Shown: piece after piece, positions 33,959 to 42,747 of the stretch
Position numbering within the stretch: position 1 is the stretch's first letter
Layout: every line of letters begins with the position of its first letter
Assembly (NCBI RefSeq): GCF_029243085.1
Contig: NZ_JAQWSS010000037.1
Coordinates: forward strand, 1-44,467
DNA length: 44,467 nt
From: Candidatus Thioglobus sp.
GTDB lineage: Bacteria > Pseudomonadota > Gammaproteobacteria > PS1 > Pseudothioglobaceae
Direction of reading: 5' to 3'
Program-made: the position numbers and the translations under genes
Notes under the pieces: generated by a model
Database searches by the model: none
What the model was told of the DNA's origin: nothing
What the model saw: the letters and a program-made list of their open reading frames with translations, nothing else

Positions 33959-36018
33959 TGTTATCAGACGAACTAAAGGCTGTAATTAAAGATTCTTTTG
34001 TTGCGTTAAAATCTGACATGACAGATTTTAGAGTTCGCCCTTCGCAAAATAAAATGATTGCAGAAGTCTCCAAAACACTCTCTGGTGATTATCAAGATTC
34101 CAATAGAATTCTGTGTGTCGAAGCACCAACAGGTACTGGAAAAACCTTTGCGTATTTGCTTGGCAGTATTCCAATTGCCAAAGCCAACAAAAAGAAACTG
34201 ATTGTCTCTAGTGCCAATGTAGCCCTACAAGAACAATTATTATTGAAAGACCTTCCCAAAGCGCAAAAATATTGCCAGGTTGATTTTGAATATGCGCTGG
34301 TTAAGGGTCGATCTCGTTATGTTTGTATTCGAAACCTGATTAATCTATGTGAGGATAGCGCATCTGAAGGTGCGCTTTTTGACTCCAGTCTATTGTTTGA
34401 CGAACCCCCTGGTAAATATCAATTAGAGGCGATGTCTGAACTACTAGAAGATTATTCAGCAAAAAAATGGAATGGTGAAATTGATGACCTAATGCGCACA
34501 CCTGATCATGATATTTGGCAAAAGATTAATTGCAATCGTTTCACTTGCACTGCTAAGAGTTGTGAATTCTACCAAGATTGTGCATTTTTCAAAGCGCGTA
34601 AACAAATCACTCAGGCTGATGTTATTGTTGCCAATCATGACTTAGTATTGGCTGACTTGGCAACTGGAAACACGGTTTTGCCAGACGTTGAAGAGTCTAT
34701 TTTTATTTTTGATGAGGCGCATCATTTAAGCTCAAAAGCCTTATCGCACTTTTCATTGAGCACTGGCACTGAATTTATAAAGACCAGTATTCGTCAAGTC
34801 AAAAGTGTTAGTGATCAAATGTGCGCTATTACCGAGCAAGTTGCGCCAGAGATTAATATCAAACAGATAGACGACTATTTAACTGACCTAGGCGTCCTTT
34901 TTAAAACGCTAGAATTTGACGAGGATGTGCATTTGTTTAACCAAGGGCAAGTTGATGATTCAGTCAAAACCATTGGTCAGAATTTGTTTATCTCGGTAGG
35001 CAATATCCAAAATAAATTTAGCACTCTTAGAGAATCTTGGTCTGATTTTTTGAAAATTAAACTCTTAGATAAAGCTATTAGCGATCCTATTAACAATGCA
35101 AGTGGTGAATGTGAACAACACCTAAATGGCATTGTTGAACTCCTTTCTTCTTTTTTACAAAATGATGATAGCTCACACTCACCTCACTCCAGATGGATTG
35201 AAAAAAATACACTCGCCAATAAAAAAACTAACTACAGTTTATGTAGTGCTCAAACCGATATTTCTAACAATTTAAATACACTCATTTGGTCAAAAGCATC
35301 AGGCGCAATTCTTACCTCAGCAACGCTAACATCATTAGGCAGCTTTAATCGACTTAATAGCCAGCTTGGTTTAATAAAAGCCAATAATCAATACTTACGC
35401 CTACCGTCACCTTTTAAATTTGAAAAAGTTGATTTTATTGTCGCAAAATTTAAATCTAACCCAACCCAAGTGTACGACCATACACAAGAAGTAGCCAGTC
35501 AACTGGTAAAACGTATTAACAACAATGAAGGCTCTTTAATTTTGTTTGCCTCTAACAAACAAATGCAAATGGTGGCCGATATGGTTGAATCAAAACTTGA
35601 TTGTGATTTATTCATACAAGGTGAATATCCAAAGAAAACCATTTTAGAAAAACACATGACTTTGCGTAAACAAGGCAAGGGTAGTGTTATATTTGGTTTA
35701 GATAGTTTTGCCGAAGGTGTTGACCTTAAAGGTGATAACTTAACTCACGTTATTATTATTAAATTGCGCTTTAGTGTTCCCACCTCACCCATTGATAAAA
35801 CATTGGCAGATTACCTTCAATCAAAAAATCGAAATCCATTTATGGAAATCTCTTTGCCAGATGCCTCTTTACGACTTATCCAGGCTTGCGGACGACTCAT
35901 TCGTACGGAAGTTGACACTGGCAAGATTACTATTTTTGACAATCGACTAACCACTAAATTCTATGGCAAACAACTATTAGCCGCCCTACCTAATTACAAC
36001 ATTATTATTGAATCTTAA
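33958..36018 (+). CDS. dinG: ATP-dependent DNA helicase DinG
   Basis: A 686-residue XPD-like superfamily 2 helicase that matches E. coli DinG in layout and local sequence. DinG unwinds 5'-tailed DNA, D-loops and R-loops. Walker A is EAPTGTGKT and the DEAH box is FDEAHH. The [4Fe-4S] cluster cysteines are in RYVCIRN and across FTCTAKSCEFYQDC. Late motifs include GLDSFAEGVDLKG and QACGRLIR. The start is GTG, overlapping the ispB stop. Its stop overlaps the trkH stop on the other strand within the palindrome TTAA. No LexA site was noticed. Confidence 0.93.
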   Translation: MLSDELKAVIKDSFVALKSDMTDFRVRPSQNKMIAEVSKTLSGDYQDSNRILCVEAPTGTGKTFAYLLGSIPIAKANKKKLIVSSANVALQEQLLLKDLPKAQKYCQVDFEYALVKGRSRYVCIRNLINLCEDSASEGALFDSSLLFDEPPGKYQLEAMSELLEDYSAKKWNGEIDDLMRTPDHDIWQKINCNRFTCTAKSCEFYQDCAFFKARKQITQADVIVANHDLVLADLATGNTVLPDVEESIFIFDEAHHLSSKALSHFSLSTGTEFIKTSIRQVKSVSDQMCAITEQVAPEINIKQIDDYLTDLGVLFKTLEFDEDVHLFNQGQVDDSVKTIGQNLFISVGNIQNKFSTLRESWSDFLKIKLLDKAISDPINNASGECEQHLNGIVELLSSFLQNDDSSHSPHSRWIEKNTLANKKTNYSLCSAQTDISNNLNTLIWSKASGAILTSATLTSLGSFNRLNSQLGLIKANNQYLRLPSPFKFEKVDFIVAKFKSNPTQVYDHTQEVASQLVKRINNNEGSLILFASNKQMQMVADMVESKLDCDLFIQGEYPKKTILEKHMTLRKQGKGSVIFGLDSFAEGVDLKGDNLTHVIIIKLRFSVPTSPIDKTLADYLQSKNRNPFMEISLPDASLRLIQACGRLIRTEVDTGKITIFDNRLTTKFYGKQLLAALPNYNIIIES

Positions 36019-37463
36019 AAACGCCAGAAAGCTTTATGTAATAGCGCCATCAGAGTTAAGATTTCTAAACGACCCAGTAACATTGAAAAACTTAAAATCC
36101 ACTTGGCGCTTTCGCTAATTGAGGCGTAATTTTCAGCCACTTCACCCAGGCCCGGACCAAGATTGTTCATGCTTGCTGCTGTAGCTGAAAAACTTGTGAC
36201 CTGATCCATACCGGTAAACATTAAAGCGACCATGATTAAAATAAACGCAATCACGTAAAGAGAGAAAAACCCCCAAACTGAAACCAGAGTACTTTCAGCA
36301 ACACTACGCTGATTCAATTTGATATTTATTTGCGCATTAGGATGGATAAACTTCTTAATCTCTTTCATTGCCAATTTAAACATTAACAATACTCTTACGA
36401 CTTTAATACCACCACCTGTTGAGCCAGCGCAAGCGCCAATAAAACTAGCAAAAATCAGCATGACTGGCAATATTAATGGCCAAAGTGAAAAATTAGTCGA
36501 AGCAAACCCGGTTGTGGTTGCGATAGAAATACTTTGAAAAATACCATAACGTAACGCCTCCTCAGGGGTTTGATAGTAGCCACTATTCAACAAATATATT
36601 GAAATGATGGCAATCAGTACGCTTAACATTAACAGGTACGTTTGAAATTCGGCATCTTTAAAAAAAGCTAGAATGTTTTTCTTACGCCAAACAAAGAAGT
36701 GTAGTGAGAAATTAATACCTGCCAAAAACATAAAGACTACAGCAACAGACTCAATTGCAATAGAATCAAAATATCCTATTGACAAATCATGAGTGGAAAA
36801 GCCACCAATTGCAACTGTCGAATAACTATGCCCAATTGCATCAAACATATCCATTCCAGCATAATAATAAGCCAAAGCACAAACAACAGTAAAGCTTAGG
36901 TAAATCTTCCATAAGGCTTTAGCAGTTTGAGTTAACTTTGGGGTTAGTCGATCTTTTGAAATGCCACTAGATTCTGCATGATACAGCTCCATACCACCCA
37001 CACCCAACATTGGCAAAATAGCCACCGCTAATACAATGATACCCATACCACCAAGCCATTGTAATTGTTGACGGTAGTACAAAATTGCCATTGGCAGGTC
37101 ATCTAAACCTGACAAAATAGTTGCACCTGTTGTTGTCAATCCTGACATAGACTCAAAAAATGCATCTGAGAAAGTCATTCTTAATGATTCAGAAAGCAAG
37201 AATGGTATTGTTGCAAATAACGACAGTACAAACCAAAAACTGACGACAACCAATATTCCCTCGCGAATTCTAAAGTCCTTGGTTGACTTTCTAAAAGGCA
37301 AATAAAGCAGTAGACCACTTAAAAACGTCAGTAAGAAGGCTGTCAAAAAAGAGTGAGTTTCGTTTTGCTGATAGATAATATCAACTATAACAGGGGGTAA
37401 TTGGGTCAAACTAAACACCATTAATAATAAACCAATGGTTTTAAAAACAATACTAAATTGCAT
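36015..37463 (-). CDS. trkH: Trk potassium uptake membrane subunit TrkH
   Basis: TrkH forms the membrane pore for K+ uptake, gated by TrkA. The 482-residue protein is rich in TM segments. It has the four imperfect pore loops with the filter glycines: LTTTGATILSGLDD, YSTVAIGGFSTHD, ATTTGFASTNF and ASMNNLGPGLGEV. Length matches E. coli TrkH. It lies 24 bp downstream of trkA and is probably the last gene of an ntrY-ntrX-trkA-trkH operon. The stop overlaps the end of dinG, so no room remains for a terminator outside coding sequence. Confidence 0.96.
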   Translation of the reverse strand: MQFSIVFKTIGLLLMVFSLTQLPPVIVDIIYQQNETHSFLTAFLLTFLSGLLLYLPFRKSTKDFRIREGILVVVSFWFVLSLFATIPFLLSESLRMTFSDAFFESMSGLTTTGATILSGLDDLPMAILYYRQQLQWLGGMGIIVLAVAILPMLGVGGMELYHAESSGISKDRLTPKLTQTAKALWKIYLSFTVVCALAYYYAGMDMFDAIGHSYSTVAIGGFSTHDLSIGYFDSIAIESVAVVFMFLAGINFSLHFFVWRKKNILAFFKDAEFQTYLLMLSVLIAIISIYLLNSGYYQTPEEALRYGIFQSISIATTTGFASTNFSLWPLILPVMLIFASFIGACAGSTGGGIKVVRVLLMFKLAMKEIKKFIHPNAQINIKLNQRSVAESTLVSVWGFFSLYVIAFILIMVALMFTGMDQVTSFSATAASMNNLGPGLGEVAENYASISESAKWILSFSMLLGRLEILTLMALLHKAFWRF

Positions 37464-37487: not shown

Positions 37488-38861
37488 TTAATCAAAATAA
37501 CCTTCAAATAATTCTTCTACTTCATGAATTTTATTCACATCGGTTAATATCAGTAAGACATGATCCCCTTCTTCGATCATTAATTCTCTGGAACCCATAA
37601 TCACTTCATCATTGCGCACGATAGAGCCAACGACAACCCCGTCTGGTAAGTTAAGCTGCTCAATCGTCCTTCCAACAACGTCTGAATGCTCCTTATCGCC
37701 ATGAACAATTACTTCAATCGCCTCAGATTTACCTTGGCGCAAAGAATGCACCATCATCGTATCACCTTTACGAATATGTGCCAAAATACCACTGGTGGTA
37801 ATTTGATCAGGCGAGATTACCATATCCACATCTTCACTCTGCTCAGCTAAGTCTTCATAAACATTACGTTTTACTAAGGCGATCGTTTTATGAGCACCAA
37901 GGCGTTTTGCCAAAATTGAGACAATAACATTAATTTCATCCGAATTGGTTAACGCTAAAAACAAATCGGTGTTTTCAATGCCTTCTTCTAACAACAGCTC
38001 CTCATCTGATGCATTACCCCGTAGCACCAACGCATCTTCCAACTGATCTGCCAATTCCTTAACGCGACTTTTACTCATTTCAATAATGCGTACACGATGA
38101 TTTTTCTCTAAATGTTTAGCCAGATTAAGGCCAATTCGTCCACCACCGGCAATAATAATATTTTTATAAGCCTTATCAAGTCGCCTAAATTCTTTTAAAA
38201 CCTTAGAAACACTGGATTTTTTAGTTACAAAATAAACACGATCGCCGTCTTTAATAACTGTATCACCATAAGCTGAAATGGCTTGGCCATTTCGATACAA
38301 ACTAACAATGCGCATATGAATATTAGGCAAATGTTTGTGTAATTCTTTAATAGGGTGACCAACAATAGGGGTTCCGGCATAGGCTCGAGTTTCAACCAAC
38401 TGCACCAAACCATTTTCAAATTCAAATACTTGTTCAGCTCCTGGAACTTCAACCACACGCTTAATATAATTCGTTACCAATCCTTCAGGTGTAATGATGA
38501 AATCAATTGGAATAGCGTCATCTGAAAATAACTCTTTACGGTGTAAGTATTCGGCTGTACGTACACGGGCAATTTTTTTATCTACTTGGTAAAGTGTATG
38601 CGCCATCTGACAAGCAAGCATATTACCTTCATCTGACTTAGTAACGGCAATCACCATATCCATATTTCTAATATCCGCCTCTTCTAAAATATTTGGATAA
38701 GAAGCATGACCACAAATCGTTTTAATATCTAAGTGTCGCTGAAGATCCAGTAAATTGGTATCGTCTTTATCAATAATAGTAATATCATTAATATTATCTT
38801 CACTTAAATATTTAGCCAAAGTAGAGCCAACTTGGCCAGCGCCTAAAATTAAAATTTTCAT
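37488..38861 (-). CDS. trkA: Trk potassium transporter regulatory subunit TrkA
   Basis: TrkA is the cytosolic NAD(H)/ATP-sensing ring that gates TrkH. The 457-residue protein has the doubled RCK_N-RCK_C arrangement. The first nucleotide-binding motif is ILGAGQVGSTLAKYL at the N-terminus. The second is IIAGGGRIGLNLAKHL at about residue 233. Each is followed by its C-terminal regulatory half. It begins two bases after the stop of the ntrX-like gene, an arrangement that points to a shared transcript and possible control of K+ uptake genes by the same signals. Confidence 0.97.
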   Translation of the reverse strand: MKILILGAGQVGSTLAKYLSEDNINDITIIDKDDTNLLDLQRHLDIKTICGHASYPNILEEADIRNMDMVIAVTKSDEGNMLACQMAHTLYQVDKKIARVRTAEYLHRKELFSDDAIPIDFIITPEGLVTNYIKRVVEVPGAEQVFEFENGLVQLVETRAYAGTPIVGHPIKELHKHLPNIHMRIVSLYRNGQAISAYGDTVIKDGDRVYFVTKKSSVSKVLKEFRRLDKAYKNIIIAGGGRIGLNLAKHLEKNHRVRIIEMSKSRVKELADQLEDALVLRGNASDEELLLEEGIENTDLFLALTNSDEINVIVSILAKRLGAHKTIALVKRNVYEDLAEQSEDVDMVISPDQITTSGILAHIRKGDTMMVHSLRQGKSEAIEVIVHGDKEHSDVVGRTIEQLNLPDGVVVGSIVRNDEVIMGSRELMIEEGDHVLLILTDVNKIHEVEELFEGYFD

Positions 38862-38863
38862 AA

Positions 38864-39445
38864 TTAAATCTTGTTCTTATCAATGCCTAAATCTTTGAGT
38901 TTTCGATATAGTGTTGTTCGTTCCAAACCTGCTTTGGCAGCAACTGCTGCAATGTTATGATTGTTTTCTTGCAAGTGATGATTGAAATATTCTTTTTCAA
39001 AAATATTCCTAGCCACTTTAAGCGGTGCATCAAACTCAATACCGGTGACTGCTTGCTGATTATTCCTTGTCATATTTTCAGATAAAAATTTACGTACCAA
39101 TGGCAAAATATCATGCAGTGGTTTCTTTAAAAAATCTACCGCACCAAGCTTGATTGCCTTAACCACATCTTTATGCTCTGCATGACCAGACATCATCACA
39201 ATAGGCGTTGAAAATCCTGCTTCAATCCATTCTTCTAATAACGACATACCGTCTTGACCTGGCATCCATACATCCATCATAACTAAATCAAAGGATTGTT
39301 TTGCAATTAGGCTTTTAGCTTCTTGTGCATTAGCGGCTAAACTAACTTGATAATTAACATCTTCTAAAGTATCCATCATGGTTTCAGAATTAATACTTTC
39401 ATCATCGATAATGAGAATTCTGCCAATTATGTTTGTATTGTTCAT
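38864..39445 (-). CDS. NtrX-like response regulator without AAA+ domain
   Basis: A 193-residue regulator. The receiver domain (about 1-125) has the acidic pair D14/D15, phospho-acceptor D58 in VMMDVWMPG, the SGHAE switch region and KKP at 107-109. A short linker leads straight to a Fis-type helix-turn-helix (about 140-190) with NIAAVAAKAGLERTTLYRKLKDLG, as in NtrX. The roughly 240-residue AAA+ sigma-54 activation domain of canonical NtrX is missing. The frame is open and both ends look family-like, so this is an internal deletion rather than a frameshift. It probably acts as an ordinary DNA-binding regulator partnered with the NtrY-like kinase upstream. Confidence 0.88.
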   Translation of the reverse strand: MNNTNIIGRILIIDDESINSETMMDTLEDVNYQVSLAANAQEAKSLIAKQSFDLVMMDVWMPGQDGMSLLEEWIEAGFSTPIVMMSGHAEHKDVVKAIKLGAVDFLKKPLHDILPLVRKFLSENMTRNNQQAVTGIEFDAPLKVARNIFEKEYFNHHLQENNHNIAAVAAKAGLERTTLYRKLKDLGIDKNKI

Positions 39446-39467: not shown

Positions 39468-41624
39468 CTATTCTTGATAATCAAATTCAATGGTGATTTT
39501 GGCACCATGTGGCTTCACATTAGATGCAAATATACGCGCATCATGTTGTTCAATAATATTTTGCACAATGGCCATGCCTAGGCCACTACCTTTGACCTTA
39601 GTGGTCACATAAGGCTCAAAAACCCGATCTAATACTTCTTCATTAAAGCCTTCGCCATCATCCATAATGCTTAATCGAACTATTTGCTTATTTGGCAGAT
39701 ATTGGGTCATAATATTAACGTTGACCGCCTTAGATGATGATTCAGCTGAATTCTTAACCAAGTTAATCAATACTCTTGAAAGACTGGTTGAATCAAGCAA
39801 TAGCTGCGGCACATCCTTATCTAAATTAAAAGTCACACTTAAACCTTCTTGCGCATCATATAAAGAGATTGACTGATCAATAACGGTGTTTAAATCACTT
39901 GGTTTTCGTTCAATTTGCGGTGTATTAGCATAATCTGCAAAAGCGCTGACCATAAGATCCATAGACTGTACTTGATCAATAATCGTATTGGTGGTTTTAT
40001 CAACAACCTCCAAATCTCGATCTTGTAAAGAATCCATAAAACGATTACGTAAGCGTTGTGCTGAGAGCAAAATTGGCGTTAGCGGATTTTTAATCTCATG
40101 CGCCATACGTACAGCCACCTCACCCCAAGCAGCTTTTTTCTGGGCGCGATTTAGCTTGGAAATATCCTTAATAATAATGACATATCCTAAAATCTTATGG
40201 TTACTTTCAAGCGCTGCACCTTGGCAAGACAACAAAAGATGTCTGTCAGTCAAACTTAATTCAAGCGATTCATTCCACTCACTGTGTTGAATTTTGAATT
40301 GTTCAGTGGTTAATGCAAATAGAGGGGCCAACTCTGGATACTGCTTGCCCATTTCAGCACAACTCTTACCCACAAAGGCTTGCTCATTCTCAATATTAAA
40401 CATGTTGCCAATGACTGGATTAATAAGACGAATCTTTCTATTCTCATCTAAAGCAATCACACCGTATGAATATTTCAAAATAGTCTCTAAATATAAATTA
40501 TGGGTATTCAGACTTTCTTTAGAACTTTGAATTTGTGATGACATAATATTAAACTGATCAATCAGTAAACGTACATCGTCACTATCTTCGCTTTGTTTTA
40601 TACGCACATCGTAATTACCTTGGGCTATCTCTCGAGTGGCAACCGACAGGTTATTGAGCGGTCGCATAAGTTTTTCAATCATACGAAAAACCAACATGAG
40701 CGCACTTAATGTTGCTAATAATACGGTTGATGAAAAGTCAATCATGAAACGCTTTTGAGTGACAGAAGTATTTAAGTCAAATTCAATCTTTTTAGTTCTT
40801 TTGGTAAAAGCTTCAACTTGAGATAAAAATCCCAATAGTCCAGGATCCGCTGCATAGACTGCATCCACTACAAAAAAAGTTTTGTCTGCAGATCGAGAAA
40901 TATAACGTGTTGACATCTTAACCTGAATAACGTTTGTGGCACTATCTTCATTAATGGTGCGTGGCTGAGCACCAGGCAACGGTTGATCTTCAACTGCCAT
41001 ACAATTCGAAATATCAGCAGTCTTGGCAATCACCTCTTCTTTCTCATCCAACAAAGTAATCTGACAAGCCCAACCTTTATCAATTAGGCCTTCTAAAAAA
41101 ATACGCATACTTGTTTTATAATTGCCAGCATCTTTCTTAAAGTCACCAAATGAAGTGATTAGCGTCAATAAACGCTTGGTTTGCTGAGTGTAACGCTCAT
41201 TTCTAACAGCTTGAACACCTTGGTACAATCCATCCACTTGATGGATAAAGTTATTACTAAACGTATCAAAGGTTTTTTCAGAATCTGCAACGTTATTTTG
41301 AATGGTTTGAAAAGAAAACAAATAAAATGACAATACTGGCACAATCACCAACATAGGTACAATCTTAATAAACGACCAGGTGAATTTAGAACCAACTACA
41401 TCGTGCCCAATATCGCGCTTAAGTCGAGTAACATCAGTATAGATGTAATAAATTGAAACCAAGCTTAAGATGACGTTATAGCCAACCAAATAACCCCACC
41501 ATTGTTCAATTAATTGAGGATTCAAGCCTAAATAAAAAGTGCCTGAAATAGACAATAGAAACACCGAAGCCCAAAACCAAGTAGGTGGCGTGCTCATAAA
41601 ACTTGCAGTTTGGCGATAAGTCAT
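39468..41624 (-). CDS. ntrY: NtrY-like membrane sensor histidine kinase
   Basis: A 718-residue sensor kinase. Three TM helices lie in the first 105 residues and a fourth near 295-315, enclosing a periplasmic sensing region. A HAMP segment and a PAS domain (about 375-480) follow. The phospho-acceptor is His509 in AHEIKNPLTPILLSAQRL, and the ATPase domain has LINLVKNSAESS and FEPYVTTKVKGSGLGMAIV. This order is that of NtrY. Its likely partner is the shortened NtrX-like regulator 22 bp downstream, which has an AGAGG site. The signal is unknown; the linked trkAH genes suggest osmotic or K+ status as one option. Confidence 0.92.
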   Translation of the reverse strand: MTYRQTASFMSTPPTWFWASVFLLSISGTFYLGLNPQLIEQWWGYLVGYNVILSLVSIYYIYTDVTRLKRDIGHDVVGSKFTWSFIKIVPMLVIVPVLSFYLFSFQTIQNNVADSEKTFDTFSNNFIHQVDGLYQGVQAVRNERYTQQTKRLLTLITSFGDFKKDAGNYKTSMRIFLEGLIDKGWACQITLLDEKEEVIAKTADISNCMAVEDQPLPGAQPRTINEDSATNVIQVKMSTRYISRSADKTFFVVDAVYAADPGLLGFLSQVEAFTKRTKKIEFDLNTSVTQKRFMIDFSSTVLLATLSALMLVFRMIEKLMRPLNNLSVATREIAQGNYDVRIKQSEDSDDVRLLIDQFNIMSSQIQSSKESLNTHNLYLETILKYSYGVIALDENRKIRLINPVIGNMFNIENEQAFVGKSCAEMGKQYPELAPLFALTTEQFKIQHSEWNESLELSLTDRHLLLSCQGAALESNHKILGYVIIIKDISKLNRAQKKAAWGEVAVRMAHEIKNPLTPILLSAQRLRNRFMDSLQDRDLEVVDKTTNTIIDQVQSMDLMVSAFADYANTPQIERKPSDLNTVIDQSISLYDAQEGLSVTFNLDKDVPQLLLDSTSLSRVLINLVKNSAESSSKAVNVNIMTQYLPNKQIVRLSIMDDGEGFNEEVLDRVFEPYVTTKVKGSGLGMAIVQNIIEQHDARIFASNVKPHGAKITIEFDYQE

Positions 41625-41709
41625 TTATTCTTATTCGATATAAGTCAATTAACCGGAATTATCTCATAAATAAAGTGGCAATATTATTACTTGTTGCTAA
41701 AATACAACA

Positions 41710-42747
41710 ATGATTCAAACCGACCAACAATTAAGTGATTTTTTAACTGTCATTAAATCACAAACTCATTTAGCCATTGACACCGAATTTAAGCGTGTTG
41801 ATACTTTCTACCCTATTTTATGCTTAGTGCAAATTGCTACTGAGTGTGGCGCAGAGTGCATTGACATACTGGCCATTGAAAATTTAGAACCTTTGTTTAA
41901 TAAACTATACGATGATAGTAGCATTTGGATTGTGCACTCAGCACGCCAAGATATTGAAGCCTTGTATTATTTATCTAATCGATTGCCCAATCAATTATTC
42001 GATACTCAAATTGCCGCGCATTTTCTTAATCACCCTGCACAAATATCATATCAAAAACTCACTGAAATTCTACAAAGTGTTATTTTAGATAAAGCTTATA
42101 CACGGCTTGATTGGACCATACGCCCACTGCCTGCTGAGGCAATTGAATATGCGTTAGATGATGTGCGTTATTTACTCAAAAATTACGCACAGCTCAACGA
42201 GCAATTAATAGCTGAAAAAAAACTGGCTTGGCTTATGGCTGAAGGCATAGATTTATCTGATATTAACTTATATCTACCAAATCTTGATCAGGCTTGGAAA
42301 AAAATAAAAGGCCTGTCTAAGCTTTCTACAAGTAAACACCAAAAGGCAGCACAGTTAGGAGCTTGGCGCGAATCACAAGCCGTGGCTAGCAACAAGCCTA
42401 GAAAATGGATTATGAAGGATGAGCAGTTAATTAATTACGCCTCAAATAAAGAGAAACTCTCAAGCCAGGCTAAGAACACGTTTAATGAATTTTTGTCGCA
42501 ACATCCGCAGTTAACTGAAGTTCGTATTGAGGTTAGCAGTCACCAACCCCCTAGCAAGAGTGAAAAACAGCAAAAAAATGAACTGCAAAAACTCATCCAA
42601 AAAATTGCAGTTCAGTATAATCTTGACGAAACATTGGTTGCTAATGGCAAAACATTGTTAAAGTTTATTCGTGGCGATCAATCAGTTAAATTTTTAACTG
42701 GTTGGCGTTATCACATACTAAAAGAGGAGTTGAAAAATGTTAAATAG
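41710..42747 (+). CDS. rnd: Ribonuclease D
   Basis: RNase D is a 3'-5' exoribonuclease that trims tRNA and other small RNA precursors. The 345-residue protein has the DEDD catalytic residues: AIDTEFKRV, VHSARQDIEAL and YALDDVRYLL. HRDC-type helical domains follow, with ARESQAVASNKPRKWIMKDEQL typical of the first. Its last 11 bases overlap ppa, and the ppa ribosome-binding site lies inside the rnd end. It diverges from ntrY across an 85-bp gap. Confidence 0.94.
   Translation: MIQTDQQLSDFLTVIKSQTHLAIDTEFKRVDTFYPILCLVQIATECGAECIDILAIENLEPLFNKLYDDSSIWIVHSARQDIEALYYLSNRLPNQLFDTQIAAHFLNHPAQISYQKLTEILQSVILDKAYTRLDWTIRPLPAEAIEYALDDVRYLLKNYAQLNEQLIAEKKLAWLMAEGIDLSDINLYLPNLDQAWKKIKGLSKLSTSKHQKAAQLGAWRESQAVASNKPRKWIMKDEQLINYASNKEKLSSQAKNTFNEFLSQHPQLTEVRIEVSSHQPPSKSEKQQKNELQKLIQKIAVQYNLDETLVANGKTLLKFIRGDQSVKFLTGWRYHILKEELKNVK

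Follow-up and report, generated by a model that had tools for sequence, protein, structure and literature searches.

Regulators of the NtrX family that lack the central AAA+ domain have been reported for betaproteobacteria, with Bordetella PlrR as the studied case (PMC13001219, citing Bonato 2016). PlrR works through phosphorylation of residue D52 (PMC13001219). In Brucella and Sinorhizobium, NtrX in its phosphorylated state binds to the promoter of ntrY (PMC9223101), and NtrX proteins without the GAFTGA motif are known from Caulobacter (PMC10274813) and Thioalkalivibrio (PMC5744179 Table 2). No experiments on any SUP05 NtrX turned up in the literature searched.

The window analyzed here is a stretch of 44,467 nucleotides from Candidatus Thioglobus sp. 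(contig NZ_JAQWSS010000037.1), in which ntrX occupies positions 38864 to 39445 of the minus strand and encodes a protein of 193 aa. The gene is adjoined upstream, on the same strand, by ntrY (39468 to 41624), an NtrY-like sensor kinase of 718 aa as the first-pass annotation had recognized, with HAMP, HisKA, and HATPase domains in Pfam and an intact catalytic motif, HEIKNPL with H509. Downstream follow trkA (37488 to 38861, minus strand; Pfam TrkA_N/TrkA_C) and trkH (36015 to 37463, minus strand; Pfam TrkH). An open reading frame named rnd from its sequence (41710 to 42747, plus strand), encoding a ribonuclease D-like protein, is divergent from ntrY.

In Pfam, the 193-aa protein matches only Response_reg (residues 10 to 111; E value, 2.5e-26) and HTH_8 (residues 149 to 185; E value, 2.7e-8), and no Sigma54_activat or AAA domain was found in it. 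The receiver domain (39113 to 39418, minus strand) contains D14/D15, D58, S86, and K108, the last three of which are invariant across the alignment; D58 (codon at 39272 to 39274, minus strand) is the predicted phosphorylation site. The NtrX-type DNA-binding domain (38882 to 39022, minus strand) combines a long first helix with a helix-turn-helix (HTH; residues 165 to 185) that carries the recognition helix ERTTLYRKL. In the AlphaFold model (mean pLDDT, 83), a standard receiver is followed by a disordered linker at residues 126 to 135, a helix at 142 to 160, and the HTH helices at 165 to 172 and 176 to 185. The flexible linker (residues ~126 to 141; 39023 to 39070, minus strand) is the sole low-confidence internal part of the model, and the earlier estimate that about 15 residues separate receiver and HTH was right. 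Alignment with full-length NtrX, which the first-pass annotation had proposed as a check, maps the deletion: ~260 to 270 residues are absent between residues ~130 and ~137. The entire AAA+ domain has thus been removed, cleanly at both ends.

Brucella NtrX (5M7N) is the best PDB match and, in the sequence-profile comparison (4.5e-41), the closest protein of known structure. Residues 9 to 118 align to its residues 5 to 117 and residues 140 to 188 to 406 to 454, with ~290 template residues skipped. The receiver fold also matches 4D6X/4D6Y. The best NCBIfam match is the NtrX model NF051870, which covers the receiver only and scores 105 bits, short of the 600-bit cut-off for a canonical NtrX with a central AAA+ domain. 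In a separate observation, a two-residue deletion after K108-P109, in the beta5-alpha5 loop (39107 to 39120; residues ~109 to 113), separates the NtrX of this order from other aligned NtrX and could affect receiver dimerization or kinase recognition.

A tree of 113 receiver-plus-HTH sequences places the short forms of the Thioglobus/SUP05 order in one clade (100/100), nested in full-length gammaproteobacterial NtrX and far from RegA-type regulators. Together with the receiver type, the Fis-type HTH, and the ntrY, trkA, and trkH neighbors, this position identifies the window protein as an AAA+-less NtrX, orthologous to gammaproteobacterial NtrX. Pfam, NCBIfam, the 5M7N match, and the tree thus bear out the first-pass description of an NtrX-like receiver and Fis-type HTH from which the AAA+ domain has been lost. 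The protein is filed as an AAA+-less, non-canonical NtrX, since betaproteobacterial NtrX/PlrR is counted in the family without this domain (PMC13001219).

Among the order's 83 genomes, 77 encode the short form, single-contig chromosomes among them, and all 49 good genomes do so. In a scan of named genomes, the same protein was found at 61 to 89% identity in Candidatus Thioglobus, the Bathymodiolus heckerae thiotrophic symbiont, Ca. Ruthia, Ca. Ruthturnera, Ca. Vesicomyosocius, and the SUP05 cluster. All members examined with enough flanking sequence share the gene order ntrY-ntrX-trkA-trkH, with divergent rnd where it is kept. The ntrY-ntrX-trkA-trkH order is common to most outgroup gammaproteobacteria, there with an NtrX of 440 to 470 aa. 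The best reading is a single excision of the AAA+ domain, which took place in the ancestor of the Thioglobus/SUP05 order.

The alternative that survives best, although we regard it as improbable, is that the short form is shared with or inherited from the AAA+-less betaproteobacterial form (PlrR), through one loss or a gene transfer. The two architectures are alike, and in an approximately unbiased (AU) test on NtrX only, a single clade of the order's short forms and the beta short forms was compatible with the data (P = 0.49). However, the NtrX tree splits these two sets (100/99), and the corresponding AU test on NtrY (663 columns) rejects a clade of the order with the beta short forms (P = 0.0011; delta lnL, 144), a result that presumes that NtrY and NtrX were inherited together. 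In a quick NtrY tree, the order adjoins G230 and G341, both with full-length NtrX and rpoN. Linker and flanks differ as well, the beta-type order having a long linker and a DUF4390 gene. An excision in SUP05 independent of that in betaproteobacteria is therefore strongly favored. NtrX forms of about 210 to 280 aa and of 410 to 470 aa coexist within the order to which G305 belongs (probably Burkholderiales), so AAA+ loss is not uniform there. Loci L221 to L230 of that order also encode NtrX of 410 to 440 aa with a further reduced AAA+ domain, the whole ELFG...GAFTGA stretch being absent, alongside AAA+-less forms.

The flanks deserve closer description. A DUF4390 (plrP)-like open reading frame lies by ntrY in 90 of 98 outgroup loci, according to a home-made profile applied at the locus level, and two of these were confirmed as PF14334. 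The same locus-level profile found no such gene by ntrY at any locus of the order, and in the window the place that it has in relatives is taken by rnd. A whole-genome search with PF14334 returned 0 of 83 order genomes, with control genomes equally silent. Because the gene is absent from all loci of the order, SUP05 NtrY would appear to run without DUF4390/PlrP, unless the gene sits elsewhere and was missed. Compared to a PlrR-type locus (plrP-plrS-plrR), the window thus has the AAA+-less NtrX but no DUF4390 gene immediately upstream of ntrY.

Without an AAA+ domain, Walker motifs, or GAFTGA, the window protein cannot be a sigma-54 activator, as had been predicted. The first-pass annotation went further and proposed that NtrX was once such an activator, that rpoN was lost, and that removal of the AAA+ domain rewired the pair to ordinary promoters. 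The genomic setting agrees with part of this scenario. The search of the host genome that it had suggested (1.16 Mb, 122 contigs, 98.7% complete) detected neither rpoN, in agreement with neighboring species, nor sigma-54 activators; three weak PF00158 matches are ClpB, CbbQ/NorQ, and ComM-like proteins. The evidence for rpoN absence is strong, and it is not absolute given the 122 contigs and 98.7% completeness of the assembly. Across the order, rpoN occurs in just 11 of 83 genomes, each with exactly one GAFTGA/GSFTGA activator that is never NtrX and each with a short NtrX. Of the rpoN loci inspected, L107 and L113 place the gene and its activator in a NiFe-hydrogenase cluster, and L108 and L112 form a kinase-activator-rpoN block. 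These are cassettes with one dedicated activator and no general sigma-54 network, which looks like separate acquisition or retention. As a side note, G064 encodes two sigma-54 activators (L110, L111) with rpoN undetected, which may reflect contamination or a gap in the assembly.

The rewiring itself is contradicted by full-length relatives. When 83 full-length gamma- and beta-type NtrX from about 75 families were aligned with 11 true activators, the GAFTGA loop was a gap in all 83, while GAFTGA, GSFTGA, or GSFSGA was present in 11 of 11 activators. Walker A or B is altered in many of the full-length proteins (e.g., GTPSSGAS and GTLFLKDI). Since the loop is missing even though nearly all of the genomes tested hold rpoN, sigma-54 independence predates the AAA+ excision. 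The ancestral NtrX was already not a sigma-54 activator, and the excision therefore did not rewire it. Judged from these alignments, AAA+ loss trims a regulator that was already independent of sigma-54.

In addition, AAA+ loss and rpoN loss are decoupled. AAA+-less NtrX occurs together with rpoN in G305 and G189, and G140, a 1.1-Mb genome with rpoN, encodes a 298-aa NtrX (L080:3603-4496) with the AAA+ lid alone (PF25601) between receiver and HTH, which from its sequence reads as an intermediate in AAA+ loss. Conversely, G122 has a full-length NtrX and is rpoN negative, as is G261, where full length was judged by open reading frame length. Because of these combinations, rpoN loss is not a general trigger. 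Of the first-pass scenario, the absence of detectable rpoN from the host stands, while loss of rpoN as the cause and a switch of promoter type do not, and the scenario as a whole is quite unlikely. A further short NtrX-like open reading frame was seen in G179 (L076:4017-4610), with an early stop inside the HTH, a long branch, ntrY not adjoining, and no rpoN match.

It is still less likely that a RegA/PrrA/ActR-type regulator, in which an AAA+ domain was never present, displaced NtrX beside NtrY. Length and domain order are alike, and the top PDB matches include the short receiver-HTH structure 3RQI. However, the window protein is nested in NtrX, away from the RegA sequences (100/100), and both of its domains score higher to NtrX than to RegA-type proteins or true sigma-54 activators. 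The receiver pairwise scores have a median of 97.8 bits against full-length NtrX versus 47.8 to 67.8 bits against RegA-type proteins. The HTH, which is about 38 to 56% identical to that of outgroup NtrX, scores a median of 55.8 bits over 69 full-length NtrX versus 26.6 to 36.2 bits against RegA-type proteins, with still lower scores against sigma-54 activators. The ActR/PrrA/RegA model NF033791 is outside the best 25 NCBIfam matches of the window protein, in contrast to the 183 bits of a true RegA relative. A RegA-type identity was rejected on the tree and on these pairwise scores.

That the gene is an assembly artefact, a pseudogene, or the product of a deletion at strain level, a view for which the fragmentation of the host assembly could be cited, is practically dismissed by the shared short form across the order, single-contig chromosomes among them, by the intact set of active-site residues, and by substitution rates. 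For same-genus pairs with finite dS, ntrX has a dN of 0.065 to 0.094 and a dS of 1.4 to 2.6, and a dN so far below dS places the gene under purifying selection. The combination that the first-pass annotation had named as the mark of such an artefact, rpoN with many intact activators and full-length NtrX in close relatives, was not encountered. The short ntrX is a real, constrained, and old gene in the order.

The gap between rnd and ntrY (41625 to 41710) contains two elements conserved over most of the order. The first, TTTATGAGATAAT, probably serves ntrY as an extended -10 promoter element and is found in the window as TTTATGAGATAATT (41657 to 41670, minus strand), for which the chance level in the window was checked. 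The second is a dyad, TTGTTG-N8-CAACAA (41691 to 41710), a candidate regulator site. In some Ruthia/Ruthturnera species (L244, L245), its half-sites appear to change together, to AAGTTGT...ACAACTT and AAGTTAT...ATAACTT, as would be expected of a dimer site. Because it also overlaps what may be an rnd -10, TGCTAAAAT, the dyad could belong to the ntrY or the rnd side and is considered a candidate site only. It departs from the alpha motif CAAN2-5TTG. Genome-wide, one-mismatch matches numbered 26 versus 14 for a reversed-pattern control in G000 and 11 versus 13 in G002, almost every further copy inspected is intragenic, and so is a second site repeated in several species. Given this weak enrichment and the intragenic second site, the dyad was rejected as a regulon motif and no regulon is proposed.

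The explanation that we consider likely as a whole is that an NtrX orthologue, its AAA+ domain excised once and the short form conserved since, acts directly on sigma-70-type promoters under the control of a phospho-switch, in a host with no detectable rpoN or sigma-54 activators. NtrY would sense an envelope signal and phosphorylate or dephosphorylate D58 of NtrX. Phosphorylation would shift the receiver and thereby control the Fis-type C-terminal domains, which are predicted to dimerize via the long first helix and to bind dyad sites. The NtrX dimer could then activate or repress sigma-70-type promoters directly, without ATP and without sigma-54, and the promoter of ntrY is probably among the targets, which would give autoregulation. 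The AAA+ domain could go because that of NtrX had already lost the sigma-54 contact loop, leaving a module whose role may have been no more than structural or ATP sensing. We infer this mechanism from the intact receiver and kinase, the PlrR precedent, and the binding of the ntrY promoter by phosphorylated NtrX in Brucella and Sinorhizobium.

A broader scheme is put forward tentatively. The AAA+ domain may have been disarmed once, early, by deletion of GAFTGA, and then removed repeatedly and independently in the SUP05 order, several beta-type lineages, and G179, proceeding from Walker decay over a lid-only stage (G140) to complete absence. SUP05 would also have lost PlrP/DUF4390, leaving NtrY-NtrX as a minimal two-protein system that regulates its own promoter via the TTGTTG-N8-CAACAA dyad.

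SUP05 bacteria play a central part in the sulfur and carbon cycles of low-oxygen waters, and the receiver-HTH NtrX serves this abundant marine lineage as well as clam and mussel symbionts. NtrX is often annotated as a sigma-54-dependent activator, yet by the GAFTGA criterion none of the 83 full-length NtrX checked, from many gamma and beta families, qualifies. Annotation and regulon predictions can be corrected: there are no sigma-54 promoters to seek for SUP05 NtrX. The protein also offers a simple natural experiment on the contribution of the AAA+ domain to NtrX.

Among described regulators, RegA/PrrA/ActR resemble the window protein in size, domain order, and the lack of an AAA+ domain and differ in clade, kinase type, and sequence scores. 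Brucella abortus (5M7N) and Sinorhizobium NtrX have a similar Fis-type HTH and reported ntrY promoter binding; unlike SUP05, the solved protein includes the AAA+ domain and the alpha-type locus lies beside ntrBC (PMC13001219). Full-length gammaproteobacterial NtrX share receiver, HTH, ntrY partner, trkAH neighbors, and the absent GAFTGA, but retain an AAA+ domain, degenerate and some 260 residues long, and in most cases have a DUF4390 gene upstream, whereas the SUP05 locus has neither. The closest likeness is to PlrR and the AAA+-less betaproteobacterial NtrX, which have the same receiver and Fis-HTH, an adjoining NtrY-family kinase, and often trkAH, and whose action the one proposed for SUP05 NtrX resembles. 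The SUP05 linker spans ~16 aa, whereas it is longer and of low complexity in aligned beta-type relatives, and the SUP05 locus has a divergent rnd instead of DUF4390/plrP or an upstream rsmB-plrP. SUP05 NtrX thus represents a new example, probably of independent origin, of the architecture described for betaproteobacteria, set apart by its very short linker, the apparent lack of PlrP, and the divergent rnd.
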